This document shows positions 3,095 to 47,400 of a DNA stretch of 64,000 bases, in pieces. Both the position numbers and the translations under genes were made by a program. Source of the DNA: Branchiostoma floridae (lineage: Eukaryota; Chordata; Leptocardii; Amphioxiformes; Branchiostomatidae); assembly GCF_000003815.2 (NCBI RefSeq), contig NC_049992.1, positions 16,126,019 to 16,190,018 on the forward strand, read 5' to 3'. A model generated the notes under the pieces. The model made no database searches and had not been told where the DNA came from. It saw nothing but the letters and a program-made list of their open reading frames with translations. The stretch's first letter is position 1, and every line of letters starts with the position of its first letter.

Positions 3095-4636
3095 TTATGG
3101 TACTCCCTCTTTCCTGGTACAACATTTGGATGGAGGGCCACTCCAGTCATATGTGTAGGACATTCTGTACTGTACTTCTGTGTGACACAGTCTCCCACTG
3201 CTCTGTAACTGGTGATGCTTTTCTCTCATCTGATCCTCCGACTGCTTGTGTGTCACCAGGTACTGATTACTGCAGCCACGGGACTTGTACTCTGTGTCGA
3301 ACCTGGGAAACAAATAAAGTTCCATATGAATCATCTAAAGCAAACACCAGCAATATAGGTTTCTTACATATACAAGCAATGGGATAATTTGCCTTTACAT
3401 AGTCATACTATATTATCAAAAACATTTAAGGCAGAGAACTATATAGCTGTAGCAATATGATATGACAATAGATCCCTTATTATGTCTAGGGCAGCTAGTT
3501 ACCTCAGTTTTTTTATCCAGTCTTTGATCAGTAAATTTTTTAACATTACAGAAGGATACATTTATATTACATGAAACACAACACTAATTTGTTCCACTTG
3601 ATTACAATAATGATAATCATTCTCCTATGCAGAGCCTTACAAGAGGCCTATACAATATAACTTGGGAGGCTCTTTTGGGGTTTCCACTTCTTGGATGTGG
3701 CCTCTAACCAGCTCTTAGCCAATCAATCAGAGAATCAACTAGACAGTTTCTCTTGGTCAAGTTTATCTCTGAGGCTTTGCGTACGAGAATTTAAACTGTA
3801 TGCCCAACCCACCTGGGGTCATGTTCCCTCTTCACCTCCAGTGGTGCGAGCCATGTCCCCAGGGAAACATCCTCACTGTGGTACATCTTCAACCACTCTA
3901 TGTTCTGGGCCACAAACTGGACCAAGTCTGCTGACAACACGTAGCCTCCTCCCAGAGCGTACGGCAGATAATAATCACACAAAACCCACTCCCCTTCCTG
4001 CCAAGGCCCGCGTCTTTTTACTCTCGCCCTTCCGTTAAAGAAACCCCAGTACAATCTTTCCTTGCTTTTACCCTTCAGTTCCTCTTGGATGAGATCTATT
4101 CTTGCAAACGTATCATCGTCTGCCTTCAAAATGTACTTGAAGTCTACATTCTCGTTCAGCCATTTGTACATCAAGAGAAGTTTTCTTGGGAGGACATCGT
4201 AAGAGTCTTGTAAGTCTGGCAGGAGCAACAAGTCTCCATTCTCCTCGTTTTCTTGTTCTAATTCTGCCTTTTCATCCGCATCCAGTGCTCCTGTTCCTAT
4301 AACAAACCTCTGCAGAACATCATCCCCGTATGTAAACCAGGTTTCTCGTATTGCGTTCCTTTTCTCAACATATTTTGGCCCTGTCATTATAAGCACCACC
4401 AGAAATGCTTCATACTCCTTGACAGTGACTTCATCCTGGTGATGTCTGTTTTTATCGCCTCCACCATCAGAATGACCACCTGAAGTTCTGATGGCCTTCT
4501 GCTTTTCCAGCACTTTGTACTGTTCATATGTCATGTTGCAGTTCAGCAGGTATAGGGTGGCGAAGTACAGGAGGATGAAGATGAGGATGGCGACTGCGGG
4601 GGCTGGGACCCGCCTGCGGCACAACCGGTGGAGCAT
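3095..4636 (-). CDS. B3GALT6: Beta-1,3-galactosyltransferase 6 (GAG linker galactosyltransferase II)
   Basis: Complement(join(3095..3302, 3813..4636)), 343 codons plus stop. The two exons join inside an Arg codon (AG at 3813, G at 3302). GT31-family Golgi enzyme that adds the second galactose of the proteoglycan linker tetrasaccharide. Visible features: short cytoplasmic tail with RLCRRR, a type II membrane anchor (about residues 12-33), KRNAIRETW near 92-100, the metal-binding ADDD at 172-175, LYWGFF near 195, [10 protein letters not shown] near 227, EDVSLG at 255-260, and a C-terminal exon with [25 protein letters not shown] and a final KEGVP. Length is near that of the vertebrate enzyme, which usually lacks this intron. 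The ATG at 4636 was chosen because an in-frame extension to 4672 crosses a good acceptor (ttctgttcctcag, exon from 4647), implying a 5' UTR intron. A 4-codon ATG-TGA uORF lies at 4647. Confidence 0.93.
3303..3812 (-). other. B3GALT6 intron
   Basis: GT donor at 3812-3811 and AG acceptor at 3304-3303 (with cccag). No other gene seen inside. The + strand open frame here (3691-4038) is a shadow overlapping the intron and the large exon. Confidence 0.8.
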
Positions 4637-4681
4637 CACACATACATCTGAGGAACAGAATGCGGTTACCAATAGTCATTA

Positions 4682-4955
4682 ATAATAATAATAATAATAT
4701 TGGGTGTATTTTGCAGCCAGTAGGTACCCAAAGTGTGGGTAATGAGGCTGTTTAACGTGGTCGAGGCACCTCCTCGAGCACAGGACCCCCGTTTTATGTC
4801 CCTCCCGAAAGATGATTTCGTGGAAAGCTTCATGAGGCTACAGCAATCCGGACGCACTTGGTTGGTACCCCATCCAAGTACTGTCCAGACCGCGCGTTGC
4901 TTAACTTCCGAGATCGAGGGATCGGGTGTATCAACGCGCCATGCGGCCGTAATTA
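4682..4955 (-). mobile_element. SINE with 5S rRNA-derived head
   Basis: Read on the - strand, the head (about 4950 down to 4850) matches the internal promoter of 5S rRNA: acccgatc, gatctcggaagttaagca and cagtacttggatggg. A body follows with the aaaacgggggtcctgtg / gaggaggtgcctcg segment, then a tail containing tgggtacctactggctgc and an ATT microsatellite ending near 4682. A second copy in the opposite orientation is at 25908-26149 and a third, broken copy at about 62212-62700. 5S-headed SINEs (SINE3-type) are known in animals; the copy comparison is read directly from the sequence. Confidence 0.85.
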
Positions 4956-23448: not shown

Positions 23449-26400
23449 CTAAAGAAATGTACAAATTACAGTCACTGGCCTTCAAGGATATGGTTCTAGT
23501 AAACAGGCAGTCACTATAGACAGGTTTCTTAATGCAATGGGAATAATAATCTAAGGAACCACAAAAAGGGATCATTAGGTAGAGGTAGTTATTACCTGCA
23601 TGTATGCAGGTATGGTTTTGATGCTGGTGGGAACTTTTCGGTAGCCGGGGATGTAGGGCGCTGTATCTCGTGAACGGATGGTGCGAGCACGACGATTTTT
23701 GGTACGTGGGTTGGGGGTGGTAGCCTAACACTCAGGTTTGATTTTGGGCCTCCTGGCGTTTGAACTTGACATTGCAGGTGGCATTTTTGGTGTTTTTGGG
23801 GCACTTTTGGCGCTGTGTGTCCAGAACGATACGCGCGATTGCGACGATTTTTGGTGCATGGGTGGGGGGTTGTTGCCTGTTGCCTAGGATTGACTTTGGG
23901 CCTTGTCGCGTTTGAACTTGACCCGGCAGGTCGAATTTTGTGTCCGAGAGGGGTGTTTCCGGAGTTATATCTTCTGAAAGGCTGGTGCTGGCGCGATGAT
24001 ATTTGGCACATGTGTCGGCGGTGGCTGAATAATGCTCAATTTTGATTTTGGCGCCCTTGGTGCTTGAACTTGACATTTTAGGTTACCTTTTGTGCGGGCA
24101 CGGGGCGTGCGCTGTATCTCCGGAACGCAAGGTACCATTGTGTTGCTATTTGGTACGTGAGTTGTTTGTGGTGTCCTGGTGGTCAGGTTTGATTTTGGGC
24201 CTCCTAGTGCTTGAACTTGATACTGTATAGGTTGATCCTGTTTTTGTGTGGTTGGGGCATCCTCCCAATATCTGCTTGGTTTTAAAAACAGATTATGGTT
24301 GGGTGTAGAACCATCATCTGGCCTGGGCCACCTTCAATGTATCAGGTTACTTAGTGGCACTGACAGTTTGCCAGATGACGGGAGTGTACAAGATTATATA
24401 TCTGTTGGTCAGATATAATTGGAGTTTGCTTATTACTCTTTGTGGTGTTTCTAGAGCTGTATAGTACTGAGTTTTAAGTTTCGGTACAAGTTCCTTTACC
24501 CTGTTGGCAATCATGGTTGAACTTGAACTTAAACAGAAGAAGATGCAATTTTCTAATGTGGAGGAGAACTGTATAGAGTGTGGGCATAAGAGAAAGGTAT
24601 GTGTATGATTTGTCCTGTGTTTCTTTTTGTTTCTTTGGTAATGCCATTTCCATACTGTATACAGGTAATTTGTTGTTTTGGGCTAGTCATATTCGCTTGG
24701 TTTTTGGGCCTGCTTAATCTATGGTACAGGCAGGGTTAAGTGGTGGAGGCTTAGCTTTGTTCTGTTTTAAATTCAGTATCGTTGGTTGCATTTTGTCGCG
24801 GCAAATATATGATGAAATTCCCCTTCTAAGCAACTGCTCATTGGTTTGCGGGGATGTTTGCTGGGTGTTTGCTCTGACTACAACAGCTTCTGAACTTTTC
24901 AAAGCTTCCATTGCCAGTAGTCTGTGTAACACAAACTCCGCTGTCCAGGGCTGTAACTGGCCCCTCCCCGCGGGCCGGCGGATGTTTGGCGGGCTGCTAT
25001 AAGCGAGATTTAATCAGGCTACATTGCCAGCAGCTTGCCATCTATAAATGGGATTGACAAGGACATTTTTCATAGTAAATTATGCTGTTAAATTTGGCTT
25101 AGATACTACAGGAGATTCAGGTTTGGGTTGGATGGATTGAATGAAAATATCATACCACCCTGGGGAGTAACTGTTGCTGCTGCATCATGGGGGCCAGCAC
25201 TATTCATATTGTCTAATGTCTATGGAACTACAGATAAAAGTATCATTGGTCAAATTATGCAAGTAACATTCCGATGTCAAGTGAATAACACCCCAGAAAT
25301 AAATCTTTAATGAATATCATTGGAAGAACACAAACCAAGGAGACTTAGCAGCTGCATTAGGTCAGTACATTGAAATAGGAAGATATTAGTATATCATGTG
25401 ACAGAGTAACTACATGTGCATGGGCCATCTGAGACAAAAAAAGGTAGCGTCTCAACAACTTCAAAGTACTGTGGTTGGTTACATACTTAAGAAATCCAAA
25501 ATAAGTAATGTTCATCCATGTCCAAACTTACAAATTCAGAAAATGGAATTTCAGAGTCAGACTTTTGCATGGTGCACAACCAACACGGTAAAAAGCTCAT
25601 TTTTCCAACCACGTACCACAGACAAAAAGGCAAAAATACCCAATAGGTCTACAGAAACCCAATACATTTCATGCAGGCCTGAGGTCTACGAACTCTTGTT
25701 AGTACAGGTTTGACTATTACACTTTTTTTCTTGCAGACAAAACTGAAAAAAAATAAAATAAGATAGGCCACCAGTGCTTTCTTCCATCCTGCAATCCCAA
25801 CATGTACAAATCACAACAACCTGTACCAATCCAAACAATTACTTTACAAATTTGTTTCTCTATGTCCTTCATAGACTCAGAAATGTTAACTCATATTTGT
25901 ATACGCTACAGCCGTGTGGCATGTTGACACACCCGATCCCTTGATCTCGAAAGTTAAGCAACGTCCAGTCTGGACAGTACTTAACTGGGAGACCACCCAA
26001 GGATGACCGGATGCTGTAGATTCGTCTTTCAGAAGGGATGTAAAAAGGGGGTCCCATGTTCCAGGAGGTGCCTCGAGCACATATCAGCCTCATTACTCAA
26101 ACATTGGGTACCTACTGGCTGCAAGTAATACACCAGATAAATAAATATACACATGTACAAAGTATTTTTGGAAAGTAGGTTTAAGGATTTTCAAGAATCA
26201 CCTGCTGAAAGTCTGGATCATTCTCCTCCTCGGATGATGACAAGTTGAGCTCCGCCCGCTGAAGGCTGGCCATCTTCTCCTCCTTGGAGGTGATCTTCCT
26301 GATGTAGATGGTGGCGCTGGAGTACTCTCTCCTCTCCTGGTCCTCCTGGAGAACCCGCGCTTCAAGGCACTCCTCACACAGCGCTGGGGAACAGGGGAGC

Positions 26401-38400: not shown

Positions 38401-41400
38401 CTTGGTTTCTGAACAGGTTTCGGACAAATCTACGAATTGTTTTCTTAGTTTTCAAACAGTTTTCTTACAAATTTACGATAGCGAATACGAGTAGTTCGTG
38501 CATCATTTAGAAGACAAATGACAATTCAGGCCTCTTTTCAACTTTCTTGCTACCACGGCGTACAGTGAAGAAAACTCGAAGGGTACCGGGAAAAAAAATC
38601 TCTGTTTTAGACGTACATCGTATATGGAAATGTTGCCCACCGATTGAAGTTCGTATTGAACAAAATACTAGTATTTTTTAAATGATCTGAATGAAGAGGC
38701 TGTTACATGTACCAAGTCCTTGCATGTACATAGATACTTTTCAAGATGGCGGCGGTGACGGTTGCGTCGATCGCACGCTCCAGCTGAAGCAAACTTTTTG
38801 CATCTTTACCTTAGATTTCATCCAGTATTTTGCTCTCTAGAACTTTCTAAACGTAGTTATATATATCTTGAGAGTTTTTAGCTACTCCAGACCTCGGGGG
38901 TAAGAGAAATACGCCGATACAAGTTTCGCGAAAAACCCAAGCCGAGTTGGAGACAGACATCATGGCGGACGACTTTGATCTCGGTGACCTTTATGCCACA
39001 CTTGGACTAACGCCGGCAGCCTCCCGAGAAGAAATCTTGGACGCGTACAAGAAAGAACTCATCGCATATGAATCAACAGCTAAGAACAGCCGAAAGACCA
39101 AGGTCTTCAAGGAGGTAGGCAAAGCCTTTTCTGTCCTCTCAGACGCGTCACGTAGGAAACAGTACGATGACAGCAACATTATCCCGGACACCCCAAAGAC
39201 CAGAAGTAGAAGAAAATCACTCAAACATGCTGAAGAGTACCAAGTAATTGAAAACCGGCAGAGTATCACGGTTTACTTCCCCAGGAACACTGCCAAGTCT
39301 TGGCTCGACTCGTGTGAAGAGTACTATGGCACTCAAGCTGTAAACGACGGAGATCAAGGCTATCAAATCAAAACTTCCCATGTTGATCCCAAAACTGGTC
39401 TCCCCGTCGGCTCTGTAAGCATCAAAATCTTCGAAACAACACAGAAAATGCTGATACAGGGGTCTGCATACCTACTATGGTATTCGGAAGTATTCCCGGA
39501 GCTCAAAAAGAAACTTAGCCAAACTCAAAACAACCATGGCTCTGCCAATGTCCAACAAGCGTCGGTAGGAGTGGAACACGTCTCCACGTCCGTAACGCCA
39601 AGTTCAACTGATATTCCCCTATTATGTTCATCCTGTGACCAGCCTGTGATGTCTGAAGTTTGTAACACATGTACCACTGTACCCAAGGTTTTGTTTGATG
39701 TAAATAGTAACGAAACACATGAAGACACTCAGAGCGTTGTACTTGATGACGACAGAAATGAAACGGGTGAAAATGTCAATGGCAATGATGAGATCAAGAA
39801 GGATCCGTGTAGTTTGACTGACTTGTCTGTCTTACAAGACAGTATGAACAAATTAGAAGCCTGTCTTGCAAACTCTATTTCGGACAGAAAATTATTCGAA
39901 GACTTTGTGGCACAAAGAATGAACACAATAGAAAGTAAGATGAAAACCCAGGTGTGTATTGAAGTTCCTTCTACTGACAAAAAGCAACTTCAGGATGAAA
40001 TCGCGCAGCTGACTGAAGCAAAGTGTGAACTTCAAAACCAGCTCGATTCACTCCAGCTGAAGTACGATGAGCTAGCTCTCGCTGTCGGCATGTTACAAAC
40101 GACCGCTCCTCTTAAAACAACAGAAACTCAGACCACAGACGAGTCATCAGAACGTGCTGAAAAGTTACTCCGTGAGGTAGCTACAATTAGCACCCAAAAC
40201 AGATTCCAGGTGCTGGCAGATAACAATGGCGTGTCTGGCAAGGAAGCGCGTACCGACATTTCAAACAGAAGCGCGAAACGTCGTGACCACGGTGCCAAGC
40301 CTACAACAAAGCAGACCTCCTGTGTGGACAAAGTCAACACCAATCAACACAACAAAACAGCTGAGACAAATCAACAACACAGAGAACTACCACCAGACGT
40401 ATTAATCCTAGGGGACTCAAACACAAAAGGTATCAAAACGGACCTCTTGTGCCCAAACAAATGTGCGAAAAGTGATGTGACGTACAACATAACACAAGCG
40501 ACAGAATACGTGGAACAAACAACGTTGCCGGACCCTCATGTGATTTTGTTCCATCTTGGCACGAACGATGCGCGAGATACGCGGGACGCAACATCAGTCT
40601 CCGAGCGCTTCCGTAAATTGGTACACATAACGCACGAGAAGTACCCCCGCACACAAATCGTCCTGTCTTCCATTCTGCCCAGAGATGACCCTGACCTCCA
40701 ACAAGTAGGAGATAACGTCAACTCCTTTCTAAGGGTCATCTCTGAGGAAACCAAGTATGTACATCTGATTGATAATAGTAATCTGTCAGATATGGGACTG
40801 ATCAAGCGTCGACTCTACAGCCATGACGGGTACCATCTGAACAGATTTGGGATACGAGTACTGGCGGCCAATATCAAAAGAGTAATCAACCCGTTGATAG
40901 GACTGGGACAATACACTAACAGAGGCGCTAGGCTCAATCAATCGCCTACACACAACCAAAGCCCCGACGCCGTATCCCCCGGGATCTCCACAACGCACGG
41001 TCAGGGACAAAGGCCACACCCCATCGCTACATACGAGCGAGACTTCCCAAGGCTCAACCAAACGCTCGTAAATGGTCCATCAGTTACGAGAAACTATTCT
41101 GACGCTCTAAGACAAGGACAATCATCAAGTGCACCCCAGGCCACCGGGGCACCTGCTGCATCGAGACCCACACCCCTTTCAGGACCTCTACAGAGTGCAA
41201 GTCAAGGCCAGTCCTCGCGTGGAAGTGTTAACGCGACCTTCGAACGTTTTGCACCGGCGGCTCAAGAATCTCCCCCGCCTGTGCGTCCGTTCTTCCGACC
41301 GAATCAGCCTTCAGGACCCTGGAGAAGCCCCCCTCCCCCGTTCAACCTGCCTCCTTCACCGTGGGGATTCCTGCCGCCAAACGTCCAAGTACCCGGCCCA

Positions 41401-44400
41401 CATTCACGGATGAACTCTCCTCCTTGGCCTTGGCACCCTGCCATGATGTGGCCACCAATGGTTACCAATAACATGTGGTAGGAACTTTCTAGTGATATTC
41501 TTGGCCTTTTTCAATTAGTAACGAAAATTCGGGGCTATCATTACTATGTCTACCAAATTGTGCCCATCAATTGTCTCAGCTACAGTATCATAGAATAGTT
41601 TTATCATGTACATATAGTTGATATGCACTGTATTTTACCTAGTGTTTAGTACGATTATTATACATAATTCACCGTATATATGAGTATATATAAAGTAACG
41701 GAGTTTTATCATTGGTTCAGCTTAACATTTTAGCTATGACATTTTAGATCTTGTCACTCTCATGAGTTAAAGTATTTTGATGATTAAGGTAAAGACGCAA
41801 TTCTCTTGAAAATCTCATTGATGAAAATGTTCAATGGCGGAAGCAAATGCTTCGCCGCCTGGAATGTTCACGGTCTAGGTTCTAAATTAGAGGATGTAGA
41901 GTTTTTAGACGAAATTCGCAAATTCGACTTCTTTTCGTTACTTGAAACATGGAGCACTCAAAACACAAAAATCAACATCGCTAACTATAGTTATTTTCAT
42001 CTATTCAGAACAAAAAGCAAACGAGCGAAACGCTCATCAGGGGGAATTATATTTTTCTATAAAAACAAATTCAAAAATCATGTCAAAAAAGTACCTTCTA
42101 AGTCGACTGATGCCCTCTGGGTAAAGATAGACCGTAACGTCTTAGGACTTACGAAAGATCTTTTCATATGTTCAGTTTACCTAAGCCCAAGCGCTTCTTC
42201 TACTCATAAAAATGCCGATAACCATATATTAGACATACTAGAAGAGGAAATAAGTAGATATAGTTCAGAGGGGTTCGTCTTATTAGGGGGAGATCTAAAT
42301 GCGCGTATTGGTAACCTACGTGATTACGTGGATAGCGAAATTAACATCGACGGTTTTCCCGCCAGCTCCTCGAACCAAGTTAGTGATAGGCAATATATGG
42401 ATAAGTCACCTCCAAACAAGTTTGGCCGGCTTTTGAGTGAGCTTTGCATACAAGCAGACCTCAGAATATTAAATGGCAGGGTGGCTGGGGACCTGCAAGG
42501 TAACTATACCTGTCACCAACCAAACGGTAGTAGCACGGTCGACTACATAATTTCCAGCCAATCGTTTCTGCAAAACATTTTATTATTTCAAATTCATCCG
42601 CTAACTGTCTTTTCAGATCACTGCCTGATATCAGTCTTCATTAAATCAAACACAGACCATCAAAACCAGCATGAAAAACAACAAAAGCGTAAAAGAAATC
42701 CCGCTCCAAAACGATTTCATTGGGATGATAAATCTGCACAGAAATTCAACCACATCCTTTCTCAATCTCATTTTATCGATAGACTGAATTCACTCTCATC
42801 ACAAAATACGAAGGACACAAAATCTAATGGAGAAATAGAAGCCTTTGTTTCTGAATTTAGTTCAATCCTGAGAGACGTTGGTTTCAAATCCCTATCAGTA
42901 CAGATAACTAAACATAAGAAACACCCGCAGCTACGACAAAATAAACAATGGTTTGACAAGAGTTGTAACGAACTAAAACGTGAAATAAAGAACCTAGCAT
43001 ATTTACTATCCAAACAACCATTTAATTCCGACATAAGGGGAAGATATTTCAAAAGAAAGAAAGAATTTAAAAAACTGATAAAAAAAGAAGAAAACAGACT
43101 TTCACAAACAAATCATGACCCAATTGTCTTCCCTCAAAGACAAAAATCCAGGCGCCTTTTGGAACTTAGTTAATAAGCTAAAACCGACGAAAACGCAAGA
43201 AAATAACCAAATCTCAGAAGAAGAGTGGTTTGAACATTTTAGCAATTTAGACAAACTCCCTAATAATGGTACAAACGACTCTCCAATTCCGGAAAACGAT
43301 CAACTAAATCCGTCGTCCTCCGCTACTAATCCATCTGTTCTAGATTCCCCTATAACTTCAGAAGAATTATATAATGCCATTTCAAACCTCAAGAACAATA
43401 AATCGAGTGGAAATGATTTGATCTTAAATGAAATGTTGAAATTTGGTAAATCGGTACTTCAAACGCCACTCCTGCAACTTTTTAACAATTGTCTGCAAAA
43501 CGGGTATTACCCACAGGAGTGGTCCCTTAGCCACATTGTTCCAATTCACAAATCCGGCGACCCATCTCTCCCAGACAACTACCGCGGAATTTCCATAATT
43601 AGCTGCTTAGGTAAACTATTCTCCTCTATATTAAAAAATCGCTTAGTTAGTTATGCCGAAAACAATAGTCTTTTCAAACCCCACCAGGCAGGGTTTAGGA
43701 AGAACTTTAGAACTACAGATAATCTTTTCGTGTTAAGTACATTAGTTAGCAAGTATCTAAGTAAAAATTCCCGTCTCTTTGCATGTTTCGTAGATTTTAG
43801 TAAAGCGTTCGACTCCGTCTGGAGAAATGGCCTCCTTTACAAATTAAACAAGTTAGGTATACAGGGCAACTTTCTTCGAACTATCAAAGACATGTATTCA
43901 AAAACTACAAATCGTGTGAAATACAGTCAAGGTCTGACTGAACCTTTTGTCACAAACTGTGGTGTCAGACAGGGTTGTAATTTAAGCCCAACTTTATTCA
44001 ATTTATTTTTAAGTGATATTACATCTGTCTTTGATAATGATATTTGTAACCCTCCAACGATGTACAGTAAGCGTGTCTCTTGTCTATTGTATGCAGATGA
44101 TTTAGTTCTTTTCTCTGAATCCAAACAAGGTCTACAATGTTCTTTGAATAGACTAGAAGAATACTGTCAAACATGGCACCTAAATGTGAACCTTAGGAAA
44201 ACAAAAATAATTGTTTTCACTAAGGGTGGTCGTATACCAAAAGATGTGTATTTCATGTATAAGAACAATCCTGTTGAAATAGTGACAAACTATTGTTATT
44301 TAGGTATTGTTGTCAATTCTGCGGGTACTTTCAAGGCGAACAACAAACACTTGTACAGTAAGGGTCTGAAAGCTTTATTCGGGATAAATCAATCCCTAGA

Positions 44401-47400
44401 CAAAGCCGATGCTCCTTTGTCTGTCAGAAACAAACTTTTTGATACATGTGTTAAGCCCATAATTCTCTATGGATCGGAAATCTGGGGTTCTGTTAAAAGC
44501 CCCAAATCCTGTCCTATTGAAACAATACATCTAAAATTCTGTAAGCAAACCCTACACGTGCCAAGATCCACAAGTGGCCTCGCCGCTAGAGCCGAGTTAG
44601 GGAGGTTCCCCATTCATTTGGAAGCCTCCCTAAATGCTATTAAACACTTAATTAGACTTCGCCAGAAAGTACCAGCAGACAGTTTCCAGTCAGACGCTCT
44701 TTCTTGCCAGATAGATTTAGACAAGGCTGGAGCCAAGTGTTGGGCGTCAGGAGTTCGCCAATCACTGGAGGAATGCGGCTATGGTTATGTATGGCATTGT
44801 CCTCTACAGCACAATACAAATTCGTCTCAAATTATCAATTCTATCAATCAGCGTCTGAAAGACATTTATTTTCAAACTTTTCTAAGAGAGATACACAATG
44901 ACAACAAAGGTGGATCCGCTAAAAACAAATTGAGGTCTTACAGACTGTTCAAGTCCACTTATAATGTGGAACAATACCTGGATATTGACAATATTCGGCA
45001 CAGGACGGCCGTCACAAAACTACGAGTCAGTTGCCACAAATTACACATCGAAACCGGAAGACATAACCGCACTCCTCTAGAACAACGAATATGTAGATAC
45101 TGCAATCTAGATAAGTTAGAAGACGAACACCATTTTGTAGTAGAATGTAGTTTGTACAAGAAAGAGAGAGCTGAACTCTACAGACTAATAGAATCCATGT
45201 TCCCCCACTTCATACAACTAAGTAATATAGACAAATTTATATTCCTTATGAATCTAGACAAACCTTTACTTATAAAGCATATCTGTTCTTACATTTTCAA
45301 TATCACAAAGAAACGAGAAGAAGCCGAATGTACGCAGTAGAATACGATCCTTGAGTAGTGTAGATTCATTGTATCATTATATCATGTTGTATCATTTGTT
45401 GTGACCTGTACTAAACCCAGTGGGTATGAATGTACAATAAAGGTCTTCATTCATTCATAGATACTTCAGTCACTGAGCCAGGCACGGGAGACAATGATGA
45501 ATGTCGAAAAGTATTTGCACAACAAAGAAGGTCAAAGCAGTCCTTGGTCTTATCAAGGAGGTTATATTCAATGAATATAACCTCCTTGGTCTTATCAAAA
45601 CAAGTTGCTTTGTTTTTGTCTTCCTATGCATGACACTGGTTAGAACATGTTTGCGAATTAGCGCTAGAAGACCCTAGAAGAAGGTCGTGAAGATTGCATG
45701 CCCCACGACTCTGACCGTTGGAAATGGTTCTAACATACCGGCAACGGGAATTGTCTAGCCCCCACCAAGCCTTCATATGGGGGTACCGGGATTGTAGAAT
45801 TTGGCAAAAAACAACAACGGGAAACTGGCCTGGGGCCTGAGTCAGTCCACGCAAATGTTAATGATATGTTTCCCCTCTACACGGCCGGCCACTCCTCTGA
45901 TAACAACTCTCATAGAAACGCTAAAAAAAAAACTTAGCACGGACGCCACTAGAACGTGAGATGGGTGATATTAGCCCTTGAAATATTTTTTTTAAATCCT
46001 ATAAATTGCCAATCAAACATAAGACGTTTATATTTTTCAGAAACGTGAAATTAATACGTTGATAATAATTACGTGGAGAATTTTTAAACAGATACACAAT
46101 GTTTTTCTTTATCGCATTACTCAATTTACTGATATTTCTGGCGCTAGCGCACGTGAGGTAGACTCAAGCCCGCTGCCAATCACGTCCTAGCAACCGCCGG
46201 TCCTATAGCAACCATCTCCGCTTTTCCCGCCTTTGTGTCGATCGGCGTGTCTGATGTTGTTTCAGAAGTGACGGCGAAAAGGTCCTCAGCAAGAATATTA
46301 ACCTGATTTTATTTTCAACGGTGATATTATGCGTGAGAACTTGAATATGAGTAACTTAGTCTTCGATTTGATTAAAAGCAATGTTTTTTTTTTGCCTGAC
46401 TGTACGTAACACTTGTTGTCCACGCCTGAGAGCGGCGCGGCTTTGTCCACGCCGTATGAGTGCCGTGCGGCGCTGGACTGACGAGGAAAAGTAGTTTGTC
46501 AACTTGACTGTTGAATGTCATATATTGTACCAAAATAAAGAGAAGAGACAAGATATTTGAAAGACATTCTTGTAACATTCAAAATACATTCAAAGGACTG
46601 TCACATTGTCATGCCGTGGGACGGTGTCAAACAGCCTGACGACATAACGCCCGGGTGAGTGGGACGCAGATAATGAGCTTTATTTCCAACGGCAAATACG
46701 GACAATATATTTCGGGAACACGGTAGATTTAATAGTTACTTGTACAGATATTTTACGGAAATGCAAAAAAAAGGACAGCCGCTCGGAGTATCACTCAACT
46801 TCGACGCCTAGGCAAGGCATGGCATGGCATGCAGGAAACGATCACCTGCGGATATTTTTGCATGACAACTCAGCAATCAGCGCTNNNNNNNNNNNNNNNN
46901 NNNNNNNNNNNNNNNNNNNNNNNNNNNNNNNNNNNNNNNNNNNNNNNNNNNNNNNNNNNNNNNNNNNNNNNNNNNNNNNNNNNNTTGGAAAGACATTCTT
47001 GTAACATTCAAAATGAAACTGAAAAGGACAGTCACATTGTCGCATGTGGCATCAAAGGGCGAACATGGCATAACGTCTGGAGAGTGGGATTTTACCAAAT
47101 ACTTTGTAAGTCCAGTTTATAGTTTGGAAGTTTGTGTAACGCTCCGTTGCCTGCCGTGGCGGTCATTTTACACGGCCTAGTGGCTTCAGATCACGCACAT
47201 GTTTAATAGGAAGGTGAAATGAGGACAGATCGCTCGGTGCCGTGTAGGGACACCGATCGCAAAGGAACGTCTCTCGCGGTGCGCGGTCACCAGCTAATAA
47301 ATTGCCGCCCCTCCATTTTGACTGGGCCAGTCAGTCAGGCGGGCCGCTCGAAGCGTATTCAGGCTACTAACGGGGGCGTGATTTTCGTTAACATGCGAGT

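Follow-up and report, generated by a model that had tools for sequence, protein, structure and literature searches.

The window analysed here comprises 64,000 nucleotides of the Branchiostoma floridae genome (NC_049992.1, positions 16,126,019 to 16,190,018 of the forward strand) and contains a long interspersed nuclear element (LINE) whose first open reading frame (ORF), ORF1, begins with a J domain lacking the His-Pro-Asp (HPD) motif. Judged by sequence profiles and a predicted model, the ORF1 protein begins with a genuine J-domain fold. We lean towards reading it as a selected, ancestral pseudo-J (type IV) module that would serve ORF1 particle assembly or partner binding, and not the activation of Hsp70.

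J-domain fold, HPD loss and surface charge

The Pfam DnaJ profile PF00226 matched the ORF1 protein at residues 9–69 over the whole of the model (1–63). The match scored 49.3 bits (E 5.3e-13) on an 80-residue fragment and 44.3 bits with the full protein, against a curated cut-off of 27.8 bits; the J-domain pattern noticed here in the original prediction, which was made from the letters alone, is a significant profile match. DNAJA1 was the best sequence match in the PDB (E 8.8e-9), and a chance match is excluded by these E-values. The AlphaFold2 (AF2) model of the N-terminus placed helices at residues 8–13, 22–39, 43–59 and 62–71, giving the helix I–IV fold with the antiparallel II/III hairpin on which the original prediction had staked its claim. 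All 18 aligned relatives, picked for N-terminal resemblance, matched DnaJ at E 0.1. No clear sign of recent capture of the J part was seen in GC content at third codon positions (0.562, against a mean of 0.473 for the rest of ORF1; 11% of windows were as high).

The element reads Y-E-S-T-A-K-N (39067–39087) at the place of YHP-DKN in solved J domains (DNAJA1, for example), confirming that HPD is missing. A search for copies that retain the motif, as had been suggested, found it in none of the 26 distinct element J domains, whereas all ten host J domains from the same genome carry it; these ten are the non-element PF00226 matches (of 39) long enough to compare, the rest being mostly single-exon fragments. 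The 25 complete element sequences carry Glu (24 sequences) or Asp (one) in place of His, one of Glu, Asn, Lys and Ser in place of Pro, and Ala, Thr or Ile in place of Asp. L079, a broken partial copy outside the 25, has Ala at the His position. The core residues Y25, F54, L57, D59, R63 and Y66 are invariant in all 25.

The surface of helix II differs as well. At position 22, 24 of the 25 element domains have Val, Ile or Leu and 8 of the 10 host domains have Lys, while position 23 is basic in every host domain and in two element domains (both His). The mean net charge of helix II plus the loop is −2.0 in the element against +1.7 in the host (n = 25 and 10), and that of helix III is +2.1 against −0.9. 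Because the element sequences are related, charges were also compared per family: in all nine families defined below, helix II lies between −4 and 0 and helix III between +1 and +3; the corresponding host ranges are +1 to +3 and −3 to +1 (one host domain, L055, extends beyond its exon).

In the pairs that have been studied, helix II contacts the nucleotide-binding domain of Hsp70, positive charge is enriched on the J side, and the HPD motif is directed at an arginine of Hsp70 (PMC7289447). Even mild changes to HPN or QPD abolish stimulation (PMC13254874). Neither HPD nor a positive helix II face, the marks of Hsp70-activating J proteins (class A/B/C), is present in the element; its domain answers to type IV, or pseudo-J, in being recognisable with HPD non-conservatively replaced. 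From sequence, the absent HPD and the reversed charge of helix II make Hsp70 activation very unlikely, and canonical docking is unlikely with HPD and the basic residues at 22 and 23 gone and the net charge of helix II inverted.

A basic residue remains at position 26 in 23 of the 25 element domains, which weighs against our reading and favours one in which the pseudo-J domain binds Hsp70, or a host J protein in the style of Pam16 and Pam18, without stimulating hydrolysis, and as a decoy or tether would recruit chaperones to the ORF1 particle or block them there. The retained J fold and helix III core fit such a role, Pam16 with its changed HPD still pairs with and inhibits Pam18 (PMC13254874), and helix III plays a part in Hsp70 binding by T antigen and auxilin (PMC7289447). 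We nevertheless regard it as unlikely, given the reversed net charge of helix II and the non-basic positions 22 and 23, since known interfaces are enriched in positive charge on the J side (PMC7289447). The Hsp70 binding without stimulation first suggested for this domain finds no support as worded, with HPD and the basic 22 and 23 lost and the helix II charge reversed; the basic helix III could still conceivably dock.

Copies, families and selection

The genome searched comprises 513 Mb in 431 contigs, with the window on contig 14. A search with ORF1 gave at least 68 matches (54 of 494 candidates scored), and one with PF00226 gave 73 (97 of 97 candidates scored), 34 of which lie at element-type ORF1s by our own count. 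Together with L042, the J-bearing N-terminus thus stands at at least 35 places, so that the same N-terminus, for which a search had been suggested, recurs elsewhere in the lancelet genome. Those on the small contigs C176, C191 and C196 may represent alternative haplotypes of copies that lie on the chromosomes. The 25 complete J sequences form nine families at less than 75% identity.

DnaJ and the GDSL esterase both scored above Pfam cut-offs in all seven relatives' ORF1s chosen, and the downstream ORFs were endonucleases in the three tested. Many long uninterrupted ORFs were found among the relatives, and dispersed and 5'-truncated copies lie on many contigs. The J-less copies L037, L038 and L044 were considered as a sign of domain swapping, which was rejected as they look 5'-truncated.

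Of 43 element rows, 18 have the word AAGATGGCG 179–279 nucleotides upstream of the J start; some rows are the same place twice, and many, including most of the L039 family, lack the word. The carriers are the window copy (38743–38753) and L003, L006–L011, L013–L015, L026, L031, L032, L034, L036 and L074. From this similar spacing, the J domain lies near the element 5' end at a similar distance in several families. We take the YY1-like 5' start to resemble that of mammalian L1.

Nei-Gojobori ratios of nonsynonymous to synonymous change (dN/dS) over the J codons were defined for 16 of 18 pairs and amounted to 0.04–0.50 there; the pairs were hand-picked and non-independent, and several of them were close copies with few changes. 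Synonymous sites were near saturation between distant families. These codon comparisons show a J fold held by purifying selection. The replacement of HPD also looks selected, because the His position is acidic in 25 of 25, the helix II and III charges are reversed and dN/dS is in this low range; as read from the alignments, HPD is gone through replacement, not decay. A functionless captured J domain, drifting with its HPD decayed, would account for the missing motif in 26 of 26 sequences, but it is very improbable: every defined pair has dN/dS below 1, the core is invariant, Glu or Asp persists at the His position despite the near-saturated synonymous sites, and many ORFs are long and unbroken.

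In a tree of 35 rows and 78 of 79 columns, midpoint-rooted for drawing, a branch with support of 100/100 separates the element J domains from the ten host J domains. Capture from the host, as originally proposed, is a plausible origin, but these ten host domains yielded no donor and the element group stands apart from all of them. No relatives were found in viral contigs (ORF1, ORF1 N-terminus and reverse transcriptase queries), in genome contigs of prokaryotes (ORF1 and reverse transcriptase queries) or in plasmids or phages (tblastn, 1e-5), and these scans say little about animals because the collections hold prokaryotes, plasmids and viruses.

The element and the rest of ORF1

Table 1. Features of the element, in window coordinates (TSD, target-site duplication; LTR, long terminal repeat; pLDDT, predicted local distance difference test)
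Feature	Position	Strand	Basis
Non-LTR retrotransposon (LINE), full-length-looking	38740..45455	+	TSD, ORFs, Pfam
5' TSD, CATAGATACTT	38729..38739	.	Identical to 45456-45466
3' TSD	45456..45466	.	11 bases, same as 38729-38739
AAGATGGCGGC, YY1-like, at element 5' end	38743..38753	+	Sequence
ORF1, 839 aa	38962..41481	+	ORF list
J domain without HPD, ORF1 residues 9-69	38986..39168	+	Pfam PF00226
E-S-T (residues 37-39) in place of HPD	39070..39078	+	Alignment
Basic linker, residues 77-90	39190..39231	+	Residues 74-90 net +5
Second domain, residues 91-190	39232..39531	+	AF2 block, pLDDT 79-93
CxxC-CxxC finger, residues 222-237	39625..39672	+	Pairs 222-225 and 234-237
Probable coiled coil, residues about 342-381	39985..40104	+	Heptad score
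SGNH/GDSL esterase, residues 479-645	40396..40896	+	Lipase_GDSL_2, 42.2 bits on fragment
Pro-rich C-terminal tail	40897..41478	+	19% Pro
ORF2 first open piece, APE-type endonuclease	41788..43173	+	Exo_endo_phos, 43.3 bits
ORF2 second open piece, reverse transcriptase	43082..45340	+	RVT_1, 133 bits

By its sequence the element is an esterase-type LINE, with SGNH catalytic blocks in ORF1 and an APE endonuclease and reverse transcriptase in ORF2; CR1, L2 and RTEX are candidate clades. Its 5' end starts with TTCAAGATGGCGGCGG and its 3' end carries an ATTC-type tail, and the TSD word is the sole exact word of nine or more bases common to 38600–38900 and 45380–45600. The name YY1-like for AAGATGGCGGC is one we presume. 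The start of ORF1, first placed at 38947, was corrected (Table 1); the open frame extends further upstream. ORF2 of the window copy is broken, since it is split by a frameshift over two overlapping frames. LINE-1 and R2 reverse transcriptases were among the best PDB matches of the second piece, and no PDB sequence match at E 0.1 was found for the endonuclease piece. That the long, intact ORF1 might instead be a host gene for a J-esterase protein, with no transposon part, is scarcely credible given the TSD, the 3' tail, the endonuclease and reverse transcriptase downstream and the dispersed 5'-truncated copies on many contigs; for the window copy it is refuted by the TSD and ORF2.

The basic linker behind the J domain is a candidate RNA-binding or nuclear-localisation stretch. 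The second domain was predicted with confidence by AF2 as beta-beta-alpha-beta-beta-beta-alpha and is conserved in the relatives' alignment; no Pfam family matched it in the window copy, and its fold resemblances (2mu4/Flpp3, KA1 and RNase H3) are weak. Helix III, the linker and the second domain could together bind element RNA, replacing the RNA-binding domain absent from esterase-type ORF1s. The charge of helix III relative to host J domains and the basic linker speak for this, as do the esterase ORF1s of RepBase, which had no structured domain for binding RNA and may rely on Arg-rich peptides instead (PMC3905857). It is nonetheless rather improbable in our view, as residues 1–73 are about neutral (−1) and the second domain has no confident relative.

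At the place of the CxxC-CxxC finger, residues 238–289 of the ORF1 of L034, a member of a sister family, gave a PHD-like finger of 21.9 bits, below the cut-off of 24, and the finger has apparently been simplified within the lineage. On hand-picked stretches, our own heptad score was 3.08 for residues 342–397 against a shuffle mean of 1.26 (p 0.002), with p 0.0075 for 345–393 and p 0.51 for 288–345. The esterase, above the Lipase_GDSL_2 cut-off of 32.9 bits, has landmarks at GDS (484), HLGTND (GTND 533, N535) and DGYH (622), and its best PDB match was the LINE ORF1 esterase 4c1b (E 2.4e-7). We take 4c1b to be the ZfL2-1 ORF1-encoded protein, a name from PMC3905857 and recall. The predicted fusion of the J module to a CxxC pair, a coiled coil and an esterase therefore stands for the pair and the esterase and is likely for the coiled coil. 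The ORF1 tails of the window copy, L003, L004, L006, L008, L010 and L013 share a terminal PPWPWHPxxMWPPM across families.

Elsewhere in the window, 5S-rRNA-like stretches were found at 25904–26022 (+) and 4835–4954 (−), with 55.4 and 54.8 bits. They are probably 5S-derived short interspersed nuclear elements and not 5S genes, because a downstream body and tail are common to both. An ORF at 3791–4675 (−) was recognised by eye as resembling a beta-1,3-galactosyltransferase.

Proposed role and known systems

For the pseudo-J module favoured here, we propose that an ancestor of the LINE lineage gained a J domain, most likely from a cellular J protein. HPD would have been replaced, along with most of the basic helix II surface that docks Hsp70, before the split into about nine families, the fold thereafter remaining under the selection described above. 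The acidic helix II, with its new hydrophobic position 22, and the basic helix III may then form an interaction surface through which the module would pair with itself, another ORF1 domain or a host partner. Such pairing would help to build or localise the ribonucleoprotein (RNP), the probable coiled coil and the esterase lying downstream of the J module. A more specific version, in which the inverted electrostatics make a new module that polymerises or docks ORF1 particles through acidic helix II against basic helix III, is offered tentatively. We know of no retroelement in which RNPs assemble through a charge-inverted J module. Particle assembly is the simplest role because the J domain precedes the finger, probable coiled coil and esterase, and RNP assembly of esterase-type ORF1 proteins is unexplained (PMC3905857). 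The conserved module offers a testable handle on how these proteins join RNA into particles. Whether HPD-less J domains are accidental or selected has been called enigmatic (PMC13254874), and about nine families form a natural series, with an HPD-less J domain under selection, that bears on this question.

No report of a J domain in a LINE ORF1 was found among the open-licence PubMed Central papers listed by the literature searches (titles and abstract starts), in keeping with the original view that such a module is not known to be described, although earlier notice in Repbase or subscription journals is possible. In two papers on the esterase, PMC3905857 and PMC5408684, a term search of the main text for DnaJ or J domain gave no match. 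Metcalfe and Casane tabulated ORF1 types for 448 Jockey-superfamily elements as PHD, zinc finger, leucine zipper, RRM, CCHC, Tnp22 and esterase (PMC4120745); a J domain is absent from that table, and the sole 'dnaj' match in the paper is a joined reference.

Esterase-type (type IV) ORF1s of CR1, L2 and RTEX LINEs, such as ZfL2-1, resemble the window ORF1 in having a probable coiled coil and then an SGNH esterase with blocks for Ser, Asn and His, followed by an APE–reverse transcriptase ORF2. The polyomavirus T antigen J domain differs from the HPD-less domain of the window; T antigen retains HPD and works with Hsc70. The tabulated esterase-type ORF1s have no J domain (PMC4120745), whereas in the window ORF1 the finger is preceded by a J domain and then by the second domain, of alpha/beta type. 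Pam16/Tim16, DNAJB13 and Plasmodium type IV proteins likewise have a recognisable J domain with HPD replaced, but they are cellular (PMC13254874), while the window's sits in a retrotransposon ORF1, with Glu or Asp at the His position and helix charges reversed. The novelty lies in the joining of two known kinds: a LINE ORF1 with a pseudo-J domain as part of its ancestral make-up.
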